A stretch of DNA of 45,400 nt, from the NCBI GenBank assembly GCA_017543595.1, contig JAFYFU010000057.1:1-45400 (forward strand), read 5' to 3'. The stretch comes from Ruminococcus sp. GTDB taxonomy: Bacteria; Bacillota; Clostridia; Oscillospirales; Ruminococcaceae. The notes beneath the pieces are model-generated. The model was not told the DNA's origin, did not search any database, and saw only the letters and a program-made list of their open reading frames with translations. Shown here piece after piece: positions 11,156-45,400 of the stretch (the first letter of the stretch is position 1; every line of letters starts with the position of its first letter). Made by a program: the position numbers and the translations under genes.

Positions 11156-11215
11156 ATTATTAATTGCTCCTGTAAAAAATTATATATTTGCTGAAAGCAA
11201 ATATTTATCTATTGA

Positions 11216-18816: not shown

Positions 18817-18930
18817 CCTCCTTATTTAATTATATTTAAAATCGTCAAATTTCGCCTTTTGTGGCTTGACTATTCACTCACTCCGCTTTGCTGCGTTCAT
18901 TTTCAGTGCAAGGCGCAAATTTTCCTTTTA
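18817..18930 (-). repeat. Dispersed structured element, copy 1
   Basis: Intergenic hairpin element between ddl and the acetyltransferase gene. Outer arms AAATTTCGCCTT (18847-18858) and AAGGCGCAAATTT (18910-18922) pair with one bulge, and inner arms CTTGACT/AGTGCAAG pair with one bulge. The element ends with TAAATAAGGAGG, the ribosome site of the next gene. It aligns with copies at 21806-21912 and 45064-45185, sharing a core of the form CTTG..CTGA.A.TGAACG.AG and a following AGTGA. Confidence 0.8.
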
Positions 18931-20151: not shown

Positions 20152-21801
20152 TTAATAGTTGTCGGGCAAATCGTTTTCAAGAAGAACTACTTTCTTCTTA
20201 CTTGTCTGATATGCCTGAACTTTTGCAAGTGCGTCATTGAGATTATCGGCTACATAGACGTTATCCATGTTGTAGCCTGCATCTTTTATGCCGTTGTAAA
20301 TGGGAACAGTCTGATTTTTTCCGACAAGGACTATATAGTCACAGGCTTTTGCAGCCTCCTGACCGAACTCAAAATTCAGTTCTTCCTGCTTTGCACCGAG
20401 TTCAACCATTCCGGGGGTTACAAGTATTCTGCACGCATCAAACAAGCCGAGTACATTTAACGCCGCACGGCAGCCGCTGGGATTTGAATTGTATGCGTCA
20501 TCTATATATGTAACTCCGCCGCCCTTGTCTAAAAGCTGTAAACGGTGCGGAACAGAGGCTATTCTCTTTACGGGGAGAACAAGTTTTTCAAGGGATATTC
20601 CCGTGCCGTTGGCATAGGCGATAGCACCGAGGAGATTCTGAACACTGTGTTCACCGAGTAATTTTGTGGTAAATCTGCATGATTTTCCGTCAGGGGCAGT
20701 CACGGTAAATTCCGTACCCCTGTCTGAAACGGAAATATCCGTTCCTCTGTAATGGCTTCCCTCAGATGTTCCGTAGAGAACTGCGTTCGGATATTCGGGG
20801 GCTTTTTTTCTTATGTATTCGTTGTCATTGTTCAGATAAATCTTTCCGCCCTTGGATTTAACGCAGTCGGCAAGTTCAAACTTTGTATTTATTACATTTT
20901 CGATAGAGTTAAAAGTTTCCAGATGCTGAGGACCTACGGAAGTTATAATTCCGTCATGCGGCTCGGCAATATCGCAGAGTTCCTTTATTTCGTGGACACG
21001 CCTTGCACCCATTTCGCATATGAAGTATTCGTGTGTGGGTCTTAAATCACGCCTTACGGTAATAGTTACGCCCATGGGAGTATTGAAACTTTCGGGAGTT
21101 TTAAGCGTTTCATACTGAGATGACAATAATTCGCTGAGATAGAATTTCATGCTTGTTTTGCCGTAACTTCCCGTGATTCCTACTTTGTGCAAATCAGGCA
21201 TTGAGGCAAGCTTTTTCTTTGCGTCATTGATATACCAGTTATTTATTGAAGTTTCAAGGGGCTTGTTAATCAGATTTGAAAGCGGTACGAGTATGGGAGT
21301 AAGATACAATCCGCAGCCCACAATTATAAAAGGCAGATTGTTTGTAAATCTTGTTCCGCTGTAAACCTGCACCCTGTCAGCCGAGAAAAACGCTCCCACG
21401 AATATTATCGCAATAAGTATAAAGAAAGTCGTAAGCATACGCTTTACCCTTGGGGTATATTTAAAGGGCTTTTTGAATTTCTTTCCGGGTTTGTTTTTTA
21501 CCGCAATAGCAATATTTAAAACAGTCAGAACAGAACTTATAAAAATTGAAATATTATTTTTCCCTTCAACAAGAACGTGTTTTTCGGGCATATATATTAC
21601 GGGATTTGTAAAAAGCAATGAAAGCTGAATCAGCAGAAAAATACAAAGCGGAATGTATCTGCCTTTGTTTTTCTTCATCCACCACGAATGTTCGGGGGTT
21701 TTGTAACCGTTAAGCTGTAACATATGAAACTCACGCAGGGACAGGAATATCACTGACGCAAGGGCAACAGCCGCATAAATAAACCATATAACTATATCCA
21801 T
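20152..21801 (-). CDS. Membrane-bound MurF-like ligase
   Basis: A 549-residue protein in two parts. The first about 180 residues hold five hydrophobic segments (about 4-22, 50-66, 84-100, 123-140, 154-175). The rest is a Mur ligase with P-loop GITGSYGKTS, MGVTITVRRDLRP, CEMGARRVHEIKELC, a lid region GPQHLETFNSIE, LLGEHSVQNLLGAIAYA and YIDDAYNSNPSG. MurF adds D-Ala-D-Ala to UDP-MurNAc-tripeptide and is normally soluble at about 450 residues. The membrane domain is therefore unusual and could tie the enzyme to the envelope. The ddl gene directly downstream supports D-Ala-D-Ala as substrate. Whether this is the only MurF of the cell cannot be told from this window. Confidence 0.88.
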   Translation of the reverse strand: MDIVIWFIYAAVALASVIFLSLREFHMLQLNGYKTPEHSWWMKKNKGRYIPLCIFLLIQLSLLFTNPVIYMPEKHVLVEGKNNISIFISSVLTVLNIAIAVKNKPGKKFKKPFKYTPRVKRMLTTFFILIAIIFVGAFFSADRVQVYSGTRFTNNLPFIIVGCGLYLTPILVPLSNLINKPLETSINNWYINDAKKKLASMPDLHKVGITGSYGKTSMKFYLSELLSSQYETLKTPESFNTPMGVTITVRRDLRPTHEYFICEMGARRVHEIKELCDIAEPHDGIITSVGPQHLETFNSIENVINTKFELADCVKSKGGKIYLNNDNEYIRKKAPEYPNAVLYGTSEGSHYRGTDISVSDRGTEFTVTAPDGKSCRFTTKLLGEHSVQNLLGAIAYANGTGISLEKLVLPVKRIASVPHRLQLLDKGGGVTYIDDAYNSNPSGCRAALNVLGLFDACRILVTPGMVELGAKQEELNFEFGQEAAKACDYIVLVGKNQTVPIYNGIKDAGYNMDNVYVADNLNDALAKVQAYQTSKKKVVLLENDLPDNY

Positions 21802-21805
21802 ATTT

Positions 21806-21912
21806 TCTCCTTATTTAGAATCGTCAAATTTGCGCTTTTGGGGCTTGTGCTTTCGTTCACTCCGTAAACTGCGTTCACTCTCAGCACAAGGCGCAAATTT
21901 TCCTCTTATTTA
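21806..21912 (-). repeat. Dispersed structured element, copy 2
   Basis: The best-formed copy, between the hydrolase stop and the MurF-like start. Perfect 10-bp outer arms AAATTTGCGC (21826-21835) and GCGCAAATTT (21891-21900), and perfect 8-bp inner arms CTTGTGCT (21844-21851) and AGCACAAG (21883-21890), with an 8-nt one-sided bulge. The 31-nt loop holds AGTGAACG twice. The element ends in TAAATAAGGAG, 5 nt from the murF-like ATG. Confidence 0.85.
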
Positions 21913-33098: not shown

Positions 33099-34697
33099 TT
33101 ATTCTATTCCAACCTCGGGGAGTGAAGGTATTTCTGCCTTTTCTTCCTTACTGGTCTTCTTAGCCTGCATATAGTCGGGAAGCTCTATCTTGTCGAGGTC
33201 ATCAATATAAGCCTCTTTCTTTTTCGGGAGAGCCTCAACAGCCTTGTCCGCCTCTGCCATGAGAGCTTTTTTGTGTTCGGGGGTATAAGCCTCCAAATCA
33301 TCGGCATTGACATCTGCTGTGGTATACATTTTTATCTGTGTTTTATATTTTTCTGCGGCTGCGAGCTTATTTGCGTCAACTTCTTTTGTAACGCCCATTA
33401 TATCCTGTTGTTTTTCCTGTTTTTTGGCTTGCAGGTTGCTTGCATCGACAACTTCCGTCTGTTTCATGTAGAACTTGTTGAATTTGTCCGCATCGTTCTG
33501 TCTTAATTTTGAAGCATCGACAAAGGGGGTATCGCCCATGTAATCGACTTTCTTTTTCTCATTCCGTTTAAGTTTTGAGAAGTCAAGGTTATCGGTTGAA
33601 AGGTCGCCCATGTCATCATTGTTTTTATGTGAAGATTTTCCGAAGAAATCGTCTGTGCTTTCGTGTTTCTTTTCTTTTCCCTCATCGAAGAAATCCCAGA
33701 AATCGGCATTTGATTTCTTTTTGGTTTCGGTTTTTTCGGGTTTCGGGGGATTCTGCGAAACGCCGAGCTGTGGGAGTTCGTTTGCGGGTTTCTGGTTATT
33801 CTGTGGCTGTGCCGACTGCGGAGCGGGCTGGACGAGCTGGCTGTAAATCGGCATACCCTTTGAATCGTAACCCATTATCTGGGGCTGTCCGTACATTACG
33901 GGCTGTCCGTAAATCGGCATACCGCTCTGGTCATATCCCATTATCTGGGGCTGTCCGTACATCACGGGCTGTCCGTAAATCGGCATACCGTTCTGGTCAT
34001 AGCCTATTATCTGGGGCTGTCCGTACATCATGGGCTGTCCGTAAATCGGCATACCGCTCTGGTCATAGCCTATTATCTGGGGCTGTCCGTACATCACGGG
34101 CTGATTGTACATCTGCTGCATACCCTGATTTGCATTTTTCTGTGACGGAACGGGCATATTCATCTGGGGCACATTCTGGTTTGCATTTTTCTGCGGCTGA
34201 GCGGGCATATTCATCTGAGGCATACCCTGCATACCATAATTTCTGTTTGCCTGCTGGTTGGGCATATTCATCTGGGGCATACCCTGCATACCGTAATTTC
34301 TGTTTGCCTGCTGGTTGGGCATATTCATCTGTGGCATACCCTGCATATTCTGATTTTGTTTCGGCTGCTGACCGGGCATTGATACTCTGTCGGCGTCAAG
34401 TTTGGGGATATACGGCTCATCGTACATACTGAAATCAAACTCCTCATCACTGTCATTGAGTTCGTCAGCCGTATACATATCCGATGCGGCATCTGACGGT
34501 GCAGTATCTCTTATTACAAAAGTTCCCGAACCGAAAGTAAAACCTGTTTTATTATCGGAAAATTCCTCCTCCGTATGATAACCGCCCATATCGACCTGTT
34601 CATAATTGACTTCCTGCGGATTTTCAAGGTTACTTCCGCATTTTACGCAAAACTTGAAACCTCTTTCGTTATTTGTTCCGCACTGACGGCAAACCAC
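33099..34697 (-). CDS. Zinc-ribbon protein with Met/Gln/Pro/Tyr repeats
   Basis: A 532-residue, probably cytoplasmic protein. The N-terminus is a zinc ribbon (CRQCGTN, CVKCGS). The middle is disordered and repetitive: first units of the type MPQMNMPNQQANRNYGMQG, then four near-identical 22-residue units with GYDQSGMPIYGQPVMYGQP. The C-terminal third is charged, with repeated short motifs VDASKL, VDASNL, VDANKL and VNADDL, each after a gap of about 20-25 residues. Start is GTG at 34697 with GGAGGGG 5 nt upstream. It is co-transcribed with mscL. Function unknown; the repeats look like a low-complexity linker or condensate-type region, which is inference. Confidence 0.75.
   Translation of the reverse strand: MVCRQCGTNNERGFKFCVKCGSNLENPQEVNYEQVDMGGYHTEEEFSDNKTGFTFGSGTFVIRDTAPSDAASDMYTADELNDSDEEFDFSMYDEPYIPKLDADRVSMPGQQPKQNQNMQGMPQMNMPNQQANRNYGMQGMPQMNMPNQQANRNYGMQGMPQMNMPAQPQKNANQNVPQMNMPVPSQKNANQGMQQMYNQPVMYGQPQIIGYDQSGMPIYGQPMMYGQPQIIGYDQNGMPIYGQPVMYGQPQIMGYDQSGMPIYGQPVMYGQPQIMGYDSKGMPIYSQLVQPAPQSAQPQNNQKPANELPQLGVSQNPPKPEKTETKKKSNADFWDFFDEGKEKKHESTDDFFGKSSHKNNDDMGDLSTDNLDFSKLKRNEKKKVDYMGDTPFVDASKLRQNDADKFNKFYMKQTEVVDASNLQAKKQEKQQDIMGVTKEVDANKLAAAEKYKTQIKMYTTADVNADDLEAYTPEHKKALMAEADKAVEALPKKKEAYIDDLDKIELPDYMQAKKTSKEEKAEIPSLPEVGIE
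33845..34108 (-). repeat. Four 66-bp tandem repeats inside a coding region
   Basis: Units start at 33845, 33911, 33977 and 34043, each 66 bp (22 codons) and nearly identical at DNA level. High DNA identity means they are young or are being homogenised, and the copy number may differ between strains. Confidence 0.85.
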
Positions 34698-39948: not shown

Positions 39949-39985
39949 AGCCGCAGGATTTCTGATATTGGAAATACTGCGGTTT
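39949..39985 (+). terminator. Probable terminator of pckG
   Basis: CCGCAG-G-ATTTC (39951-39962) pairs with GAAAT-A-CTGCGG (39971-39982) with one mismatch. The T-tail is short, so it may be leaky. Confidence 0.5.
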
Positions 39986-39986
39986 G

Positions 39987-40015
39987 TTGACTAATCTAAA
40001 ATATTGTGGTATAGT
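39987..40015 (+). promoter_or_regulatory. Promoter of the PD-(D/E)XK gene
   Basis: TTGACT (39987-39992), 17 nt, TATAGT (40010-40015), directly after the pckG terminator. Confidence 0.6.
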
Positions 40016-40061
40016 TGTTACTGAAATAAATCAAGGTTTGCATAATAAAGGAGATAATTTT

Positions 40062-40868
40062 ATGATTGTTGCCGAATCAAATTATTATGAATTTGAAGAA
40101 TATAAAAACATTGTTGAAAAATATGTAAACAACGATGCACGTGAGATTTGTTTTCAAAATAGAGTAATTGTGTGTCTTTTGGAAAAAATATTTATAAATG
40201 AAGAGAACATATGGATTGTAGATGTATCAACTCAATTTAAAAACAAGAAAAGTAAAAATCATACAAGAAATCCTTATGCTGGGGAACAAACTCCTGATTT
40301 GCTTGTTGCAGAAAATTGGGCTTATAAGAATGAAAATAGGAATATAAATTATTATGTTGTAATTGAAGTGAAATCTCCGATTCTTAATAAAAATGTAGTT
40401 AAAGACCTTACAGATATAAAACTGTTAGAAGAATTGACGGATTATATACAACATATAGACAAAGTAATTTTAACAGATTGCCATATGTGGCGTTTTTTCG
40501 AGAAAATAAAGACTATGCCGAAATTAAAACAAAAACTGACTGCACAATTTGAAGAAGTTTCTGTGGAAAAATTTACTCTTACGAATGGCGAAGTGGAAAA
40601 ATTTACTCTTACGAATGGCGAAGATGAAAAACGAATTATTTTGCGTGTAACTAACAAACAGAATAATGAATGGATTATGGAAGAAAAGAAACAATTTATT
40701 TTGCATGATGGTAAAAATTGGATTACGAAAAAGATAAGTTCAGATATTCCATTTGAAATTAAAGGTGCTCCATTGACTGTAACTTTTAGTATAAATGAAC
40801 CAGAGAACTGGAAAGAGTTTCTAGATTACATTAAAGATTTTGTTTTACCACAACAAAAGAATGAGTAA
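40062..40868 (+). CDS. Lone PD-(D/E)XK nuclease-like protein
   Basis: A 268-residue protein I cannot assign to a named family. Residues 78-79 (PD in EQTPDLLV) and 102-104 (EVK in VVIEVKSP), with Glu28 or Glu41 before them, match the PD-(D/E)XK nuclease core found in restriction and repair enzymes. Residues about 165-190 hold a 10-residue tandem repeat, EKFTLTNGE-V/D. The C-terminal 80 residues are a separate beta-rich region. I start at 40062 because AAGGAG lies 8 nt upstream; the frame opens earlier at 39984 but over the promoter. GC is visibly lower and codon choice more A/T-ending than in pckG and nifJ, pointing to transfer. It stands alone between its own promoter and terminator. Nuclease activity is inference. 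Confidence 0.65.
   Translation: MIVAESNYYEFEEYKNIVEKYVNNDAREICFQNRVIVCLLEKIFINEENIWIVDVSTQFKNKKSKNHTRNPYAGEQTPDLLVAENWAYKNENRNINYYVVIEVKSPILNKNVVKDLTDIKLLEELTDYIQHIDKVILTDCHMWRFFEKIKTMPKLKQKLTAQFEEVSVEKFTLTNGEVEKFTLTNGEDEKRIILRVTNKQNNEWIMEEKKQFILHDGKNWITKKISSDIPFEIKGAPLTVTFSINEPENWKEFLDYIKDFVLPQQKNE
40563..40622 (+). repeat. Two-copy 30-bp in-frame tandem repeat
   Basis: Identical 30-nt units at 40563-40592 and 40593-40622 (GTGGAAAAATTTACTCTTAC... and on) encode VEKFTLTNGE twice. Loss or gain of a unit keeps the frame. Confidence 0.9.
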
Positions 40869-45069: not shown

Positions 45070-45185
45070 TTAAGGGGGTTTGGGGGAAAAGCCGCCTTGC
45101 GCTGAAAGTGAACGTAGCAAAGCGCAGTGAACGAAAGCGCAATATTTCAAAAGCGGCGTTCACCCATTTTAAAATAAGGAGGTTT
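45064..45185 (+). repeat. Dispersed structured element, copy 3
   Basis: Same layout as the copies at 18817 and 21806, here on the plus strand. Outer arms GCCGC (45091-45095) and GCGGC (45153-45157), inner arms TTGCGCT (45097-45103) and AGCGCAA (45136-45142), loop with AGTGAACG twice, and an ending AAAATAAGGAGG. A 23-nt near-direct repeat (CAAAAGCGGCGTTCACCCAT, then CAAAAGCGGTGTTCCCCCAT) spaces the ribosome site from the next start. Confidence 0.75.
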
Positions 45186-45231
45186 GGGGAAACAGGATTC
45201 AAAAGCGGTGTTCCCCCATTTCAGATACATT

Positions 45232-45400
45232 ATGCTTATAATTTCAATAAAAGATATTGCCAAAAAAGAACAGCATACCCACGCACATAAACTGCTCAGG
45301 GAATGTCTTAAAAAATATAATATTAACTACAATGAAGAAACCAAAATACATAAAACAGAAATGGGAAAGCCCTCACTTGCGGACTATCCCGAAATAAAAT
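45232..45400 (+). CDS. 4'-phosphopantetheinyl transferase (Sfp type), N-terminal part
   Basis: The first 56 codons of a protein that runs off the window. The motif HKTEMGKPSLADYPEIK is the Sfp/AcpS-superfamily signature before the usual HFNISHS segment, which would lie just beyond the edge. A preceding HAHKLLRECLKKYNI also fits. These enzymes load phosphopantetheine on acyl-carrier or peptide-carrier proteins. The start at 45232 has no ribosome site close by; the AAGGAGG of the structured element lies about 48 nt upstream. A GTG at 45208 is an alternative start. The N-terminus is short for a full Sfp. Confidence 0.7.
   Translation, partial: MLIISIKDIAKKEQHTHAHKLLRECLKKYNINYNEETKIHKTEMGKPSLADYPEIK

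Follow-up and report, generated by a model that had tools for sequence, protein, structure and literature searches.

The PATEs and SMRs of Haloquadratum walsbyi are short, transposase-free mobile repeats that occur in many copies, are nested in one another and leave no target duplication; as characterised in the cited account, PATEs are palindromic, related to IS605-type elements and equipped with near-terminal palindromes, and SMRs possess terminal inverted repeats, with a mobilisation that is called enigmatic (PMC3119063). REPs, as portrayed in the sections cited here, measure 20-40 bp, bear a tag (GTAG or CGTC) and are accompanied by a RAYT gene, and the stems of Escherichia coli REPs contain conserved mismatches (PMC8266576; PMC3733652). 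Among the pneumococcal repeats, according to the relevant parts of one study, BOX and RUP are present in >100 copies, BOX with tandem inner modules; BOX, RUP and SPRITE are transcribable hairpins that are patchily distributed among close species and inserted into one another, and both BOX and RUP end in inverted repeats and are flanked by target duplications (PMC3049150). In its distances to genes, BOX conforms to the general intergenic pattern; RUP is densest 50-150 bp away from genes; and the Shine-Dalgarno (SD) passage of that study concerns ORFs encoded by BOX, not targeting (PMC3049150).

The repeat described here, found in a stretch of 45,400 nt from a Ruminococcus sp. genome (contig JAFYFU010000057.1, positions 1-45,400; hereafter the window), works like REP, PATE, SMR and BOX but departs from REP in size and tag, from PATE in the near-terminal palindromes and IS605-type parent, and from BOX in build. 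As in the cited account of PATEs and SMRs, the units are short, present in many copies and nested, and insertion occurs without target duplication (with the exception of locus L188); unlike them, each unit consists of one long central hairpin with internal G.A mismatches, insertion is SD-directed and in the sense orientation, and the tandem arrays are exact. No IS605-type parent transposon was identified in the window's genome (G000). High-copy palindromic DNA, conserved stem mismatches and a proposed single-strand mobilisation in trans are shared with REPs as these are described above, whereas the units are 94-97 nt long, running from a conserved 5' flank, AGAGGAAR, to TTTTAAAT, and by eye carry no such tag at the hairpin foot. 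Arrays are built of whole units end to end, unlike the BOX layout given in that source, in which end modules surround a tandem inner module. In contrast to a classical MITE, there is no target duplication (L188 again excepted) and there are no terminal inverted repeats, the inverted arms being internal; no MITE-type parent element was present among the families searched (Y1, RVT_1 and IS110). Integron attC sites combine a folded single strand, covarying arms, head-to-tail arrays and a short target, and the units resemble them in all of these, but have no cassette gene and, by eye, no attC boxes. Word searches of the open-access literature, in themselves weak evidence, returned neither an SD-targeted repeat nor a report on these Ruminococcus units.

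The window is part of a 2.41-Mb assembly of 127 contigs (93% complete). A covariance model (R1) was built from 52 aligned units of this genome, one of which was the first window copy, and was used with filters off to score the copies in the window: 21813-21906 (minus strand, 110.4 bits), 18834-18928 (minus strand, 80.1 bits) and 45081-45174 (plus strand, 64.3 bits), all with E-values no higher than 1.6e-14, against 0.33 for the next match in the window. The original prediction had been a hairpin repeat in three copies of shared length, with arms that change together and a common end in the ribosome site of the following gene. The three copies, their length and the repeated AGTGAACG of the core were borne out, as were the Mur ligase and hexapeptide acetyltransferase genes said to lie downstream (Pfam); the third pair of arms and the common SD end were not. 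Copy 1 is an A-type unit (5'-AGAGGAA...TTCTAAAT-3') positioned directly upstream of the AAGGAG SD (21807-21812) of the Mur ligase gene (ATG at 21801, minus strand). Copy 2, also A-type and upstream of the acetyltransferase gene, has mispaired arms (sense CTTGCACT / AGTCAAG, with an outer GCG / GCG mismatch), resulting in 7 broken pairs and a fold energy of only -17.4 kcal/mol compared to -26.8 and -30.5 kcal/mol for the other two copies. It appears to be a chimera, in which the 5' portion comes from one unit and the 3' portion from another, and the orthologous site in Ruminococcus sp. RGIG4914 lacks a unit. The arms of copies 1 and 3 co-vary as predicted; those of copy 2 do not.

Copy 3, with its different outer arms (AGGGGGTTTGGGGGAAAAGCCGCC), represents a second subtype, B, and occupies 45073-45175 (plus strand, ends set by eye). 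Between it and the ATG at 45232 stands an apparent remnant of a second B-type unit (45176-45225, plus strand; repeat family D8), in which the left end and the 3' outer arm are recognisable by eye and the core is deleted. The shared terminal AAATAAGGAG proposed for the copies fared correspondingly: the SD lies at the unit end in copy 1 and ~11 nt beyond it in copy 2, and after copy 3 the AAGGAGG (45176-45182) is ~50 nt short of the ATG; by eye it appears to form the left end of the internally deleted B-type unit, and it is hence not the ribosome site of that gene. Only copy 1 of the three directly abuts the SD of its own gene. Two other kinds of repetition also occur in the window: direct repeats with 66-nt and 57-nt periods at 33832-34379, within a long ORF (33099-34697, minus strand), and an exact 30-nt tandem duplication at 40563-40622, within the ORF at 39984-40868.

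In each unit, the outer helix spans 9 bp and the middle helix 8 bp (CTTGnnnn / nnnnCAAG); the 3' side also has an unpaired segment, and towards the tip the pairs form two-bp islands, with almost invariant G.A mismatches between them, ending in a short loop. Of the 52 units, 51-52 have G.A or A.G at each of the alignment columns 33.54, 34.53, 37.50 and 39.48. These mismatches would be C.T on the opposite strand, and the sense strand is therefore taken as the one that would fold. B-type units possess the same core with GGGGG-rich outer arms. Across the 52 units of the window's species, 97.3% of 1196 cells were paired compared to 81.4% when shuffled, 198 cells were changed on both sides compared to 61.1 when shuffled, and 16 of the 23 pairs had changed on both sides. 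None of 500 shuffles reached the observed pairing or both-side changes and three of 500 did so for further pair types (the shuffles ignore relatedness), and sliding the partner by 1-3 columns lowered pairing to 21-37%. The same was seen in RGIG4914 (95.6% paired; 346 both-side-changed cells vs 107.4; 19 of 23 pairs), for which the alignment was fitted to the model and so leans towards it. The idea that the fold itself is being kept is supported by these counts, and the covariation persisted as more copies were aligned; the arm pair of copy 2, which had been cited in its favour, contributes nothing.

The changes are nearly all from one Watson-Crick pair to another: among 4058 cells from the three species, only 54 were G.T and 32 A.C, a mild excess of G.T (P = 0.02). 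Such near-absence of wobble pairs seems unusual for RNA helices, and nearly wobble-free covariation would fit selection on folded DNA. An apparent extra small hairpin occurs in the apical loop or 3' linker of units at L109:10880-10987 and L106 near 18757 (minus-strand coordinates). No Rfam 15 family matched the window at the gathering threshold, and none matched loci L002, L132 or L209 at E-values up to 0.5.

Within the window's genome, at least 149 units were matched by R1; one match was partial, and 150 candidates had been scored. Nucleotide searches with copy 1 and copy 3 recovered at least 58 stretches (40 of 147 candidates scored) and at least 48 stretches (including copy 3 itself; 40 of 101 candidates scored), respectively, partly at the same places. 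Further copies were also found in relatives, as expected of a genuine family: with R1, units were present in three of 125 Ruminococcus genomes, the window's included (stricter filters apply above 40 genomes), and there were none in the 24 genomes of other genera of the same order among 60 relatives. The other two carriers, Ruminococcus sp. RGIG4914 (G028) and Ruminococcus sp. UBA4383 (G083), were likewise the carriers identified in a core-pattern scan of GTDB species, a scan from which the window's own records may be absent. By bit score, their Mur ligase proteins are the best full-length matches to that of the window (89% each), followed by the congener G005 (84%); partial matches in G009, G032 and G075 (86-87% over parts) are unrankable. 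As the best matches come from the other carriers, the three, all Ruminococcus species of the rumen, are probably a small clade.

Units also occur in viruses. Three pattern scans yielded 10 viral loci, five of which (L209, L255, L258, L260 and L261) had strong R1 matches, with L260 and L261 scoring alike and possibly representing the same virus; L257 had a weak match (27.8 bits) and the other four had none. The L209 contig carries four units and encodes terminase, portal, capsid, connector and tape-measure proteins, identifying a tailed phage. No match was found in phage and plasmid record collections at the blastn level. Core-pattern matches in Candidatus Methanoperedens were considered and left out of the family, since they share just a 34-nt apical hairpin within a different repeat. 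That hairpin (GAGTGAACGCAGC..GCGGAGTGARCGAAGG) recurs at L175:4007-4040, L175:3017-3050 and L176:195-228, in three copies of a dispersed repeat with a conserved stretch of ~140 nt on archaeal MAG contigs, and is perhaps a recurrent structural module.

The insertion target was explored with 344 units from loci up to L208 (75 partial ones and 8 at contig ends were excluded from the flank counts; viral and later loci are outside the counts). This set, on which the figures for shared-site likeness, G.T and A.C pairs, the -10 motif, upstream genes and left flanks are based, holds a few double counts from overlapping loci (e.g., L110/L161), strict de-duplication leaving 339 units (268 full), and many of the loci were chosen for holding units, such that densities are not genome-wide. 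Scoring of a gene start required, within 40 nt, an SD-like motif together with an ORF start (≥50 codons). An SD and start followed 68 units in the window's species, 52 in RGIG4914 and 15 in UBA4383; before de-duplication, a further 97 units were followed by another unit, six by a start without an SD motif and 23 by other sequence, several of these last turning out to be tandem or nested. After de-duplication, an SD and start were present in 135 of 177 sense right flanks without a full neighbour compared to one of 181 antisense left flanks (135 of 182 and one of 178 prior to strict de-duplication). The SD motif started 0-2 nt past the unit end in 126 of the 135, and of the 42 right flanks without the pattern some are partial-tandem or nested.

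On the other side, the left flank of 135 first-in-array units has the consensus TTTAAAYA with ~5.1 bits over nine positions, compared to ~1.2 bits before the SD of 137 unit-free control genes; tandem units and flanks resembling the end of an older unit had been removed from this set, to which decayed older units may still contribute. Left flanks, junctions and right ends, taken together, indicate that the target, the junction between units and the right end of the unit share TTTAAAYA^AGRGG. Short repeats such as AATTCGGAATTAGGAATTA and AATGCATAATTCATAATTC often lie directly upstream of units (e.g., L139, L028, L181 and L093) and apparently belong to another intergenic repeat family.

Comparison with the sister species resolves individual insertions. 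At the focal site, both sisters have an empty TTTAAATA^AGGAG-like sequence, and the window has one extra block of ~95 nt: the flank reads ...GATTAATTGTTTAAATAAGGAGAAAATATG in UBA4383 and ...GACTGACGATTAAATAAGGAGATAATATG in RGIG4914, and ...GATTAATTATTTTAAATA, the unit and then AAGGAGAAAATATG in the window. The focal unit is flanked by TAAATAAG on either side, and the insertion joint can therefore be placed only to within this sequence. The claim that the element supplies the ribosome site stands insofar as copy 1 adjoins an SD, and fails in that the aligned sister sites possess the SD without a unit and copy 3 supplies none; at the focal locus it is better put that the element would have inserted beside an SD already there. 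The converse case is found at 11156-11172 (minus strand), an empty target consisting of the SD and leader of rimM (RimM by Pfam), where at the 11172/11173 junction RGIG4914 has a 3-unit array (pair #68) and UBA4383 two units, one partial. Further empty and filled pairs with small differences near the joint are #91, #160, #163 and #202, the last having a B unit that separates an A unit from the SD; many other pairs are not clean, the left flank having other changes. No target duplication beyond the common TAAATAAG homology was seen in the clearest pairs, the exception being L188 (#158), with an 8-12-nt repeat at the ends of a unit away from an SD. At L265, beside the Mur ligase gene, RGIG4914 carries a unit ahead of the gene that follows in the operon, which in the window encodes D-Ala-D-Ala ligase; the other two species show none there.

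Units are also inserted into one another. At L042, L132, L133 and L119, a unit is nested in the apical loop of another, with both halves of the host visible and a few host bases beside the insert apparently lost or changed, and L132 and L133 contain an identical insert in different hosts. The suggestion that this might be a small mobile element is upheld by that identical copy in two hosts, by the focal empty sites in both sisters, by the viral copies and by the restriction to three of 125 congeners.

These observations are probably best explained by a non-autonomous mobile element of ~95 bp whose sense-strand fold would be recognised, and joined at TTTAAAYA^AGGAG, by a putative enzyme acting in trans. 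The sense strand, as a single-stranded substrate, would fold into the long hairpin that such an enzyme reads, and the unit ends (5' AGAGGAA, 3' TTTTAAATA) would be joined by strand exchange at YA^RG to a target made up of a gene's SD and the A/T-rich stretch before it, usually with no clear target duplication. Since the junction of two element ends, TTTTAAATA^AGAGGAA, resembles the target, new units may also insert beside old ones, giving head-to-tail arrays, which recombination may then enlarge or shrink and in which it may produce chimeras. After insertion, the hairpin would sit in the 5' leader of the mRNA, and insertions would be tolerated because the SD is spared.

Transfer of a single strand by an IS200/IS605-type or RAYT-type Y1 HUH transposase, with loops and displaced strands offering single-stranded targets, accounts for a number of these features and is nonetheless unlikely. 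The cleavage sites of such elements match each other, as the left target (TTTAAAYA) here matches the right end of the unit, and the lack of clear duplication in most clean pairs, the nesting in loops and a structured strand with conserved mismatches are all consistent with it. TnpAREP, as described in part of the literature on REPs, has single-stranded REP as its substrate, with cleavage at CT or CA, and may require a bulge in the stem (PMC8266576). No intact Y1 gene (PF01797), however, is present in the three carrier assemblies, which are incomplete and MAG-like (93%, 73% and 81%), and its remnants amount to a broken match in G000 that misses the E-value threshold of 0.001 (E = 0.014) and a 77-aa fragment in RGIG4914, with none in UBA4383 at E-values up to 1. 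An unsystematic look beside the hairpin foot identified no guide tetranucleotide. Targets of IS200/IS605-kind elements are set by one flank, and the SD side is the more constant flank here, a constancy that a Y1 mechanism alone would leave unexplained.

The position of the units in leaders raises the question of function, and a cis-regulatory RNA under selection, acting on translation, stability, processing or attenuation, might have been spread once by mobility and now constitute the regulon of one protein or ligand. Units almost always lie in the sense orientation in 5' leaders beside an SD, their fold is kept with compensatory changes, and a co-oriented gene clearly lies within 300 nt upstream of 91 of 167 first units (39 ambiguous, 16 divergent, 21 neither). 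Sites are also shared: 13 of 25 window-species sites that could be mapped into RGIG4914 were occupied there, compared to a base rate of 15% (47 sites per 313 ORFs; P = 1.7e-5), a rough comparison given that the stretches were chosen for units and ORFs are a mere proxy for sites. Such co-occupancy could reflect selection for having some unit at these places. Vertical descent of the units at shared orthologous sites was rejected as its cause, as the similarity of units at 27 shared site pairs (0.773) does not exceed that of random cross-species pairs (0.775 ± 0.054), which also counts against a conserved regulator; the shared sites are read as repeated insertion and replacement at favoured sites. 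Further, 122 of the 125 congeners have no match to the element, though 117 have a Mur ligase match (~6 at just 30-34% identity), and the few annotated downstream genes (Mur ligase, acetyltransferase and phage structural genes) are unrelated. A -10 promoter motif was found upstream of 64 of 167 first units compared to a shuffled mean of 46, but the antisense control reached 75, and so it is not taken as a signal. The operon-internal regulator and the RNA-processing site of the original prediction, both rivals of the mobile reading, found no direct support. A regulon of this kind is, on this evidence, decidedly unlikely.

The arrays bear on whether any dedicated enzyme is required. They consist mostly of one or two units and at most four, arranged head-to-tail, with a 1-nt gap at 62 of 83 tandem junctions. 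In principle, the SD-like (AGAGG / AGGAG) and A/T-rich ends could serve as micro-homology for slippage, template switching or illegitimate recombination, which would suit the 24 of 79 adjacent tandem units that are ≥95% identical, the TAAATAAG on both sides of the focal unit and the chimera-like units (≥3 broken pairs in one main helix), of which there are 3 of 52, 2 of 88 and 0 of 45 in the three sets of aligned units, with window copy 2 as another outside those rows. Array neighbours are mostly not near copies, however (median identity 0.83 over 79 pairs vs 0.80 for unlinked pairs drawn at random), local slippage does not suffice for the gain of 95 nt at the focal site or for the identical insert in two hosts, and the element is confined to three of 125 congeners although SD homology is universal, making an origin by micro-homology alone improbable. 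For the same reason of few near-identical neighbours, tandem duplication was discarded as the source of all arrays, and these are read as growing by both duplication and new insertion.

A route through RNA, in which reverse transcription of the hairpin transcript precedes insertion at SDs, or the hairpin enters mRNA at the SD and is then copied back, is very improbable: the sense orientation and leader position agree with it, and a similarity of cDNA ends to the target would explain arrays, but RVT_1, like IS110, is absent at E-values up to 0.001 from the incomplete assemblies G000 and G028, G.U pairs are few for an RNA fold and the apical-loop targets fit DNA equally.

The preferred reading, a non-autonomous element moved in trans, can be taken a step further, to a version that is offered tentatively and as possible rather than probable. 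The ribosome-binding site would itself be the attachment site, and a folded sense strand, stabilised by two-bp islands lying between tandem sheared G.A pairs, would be exchanged at TTTAAAYA^AGRGG by a novel recombinase; by mimicking its target, the element would build arrays and enter the leaders of both host and phage genes with translation spared. Tyrosine recombinases (two in G000, four in G028) and serine recombinases (four in G000, five in G028) are encoded in the carriers, none of them linked to the element.

Small mobile repeats shape bacterial leaders and operons. Discovery of the enzyme would reveal an integrase or transposase that targets a translation signal and offers a natural way to put structured RNA before many genes. 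The nearly wobble-free covariation of the units, in turn, offers a test of selection on folded DNA versus folded RNA.
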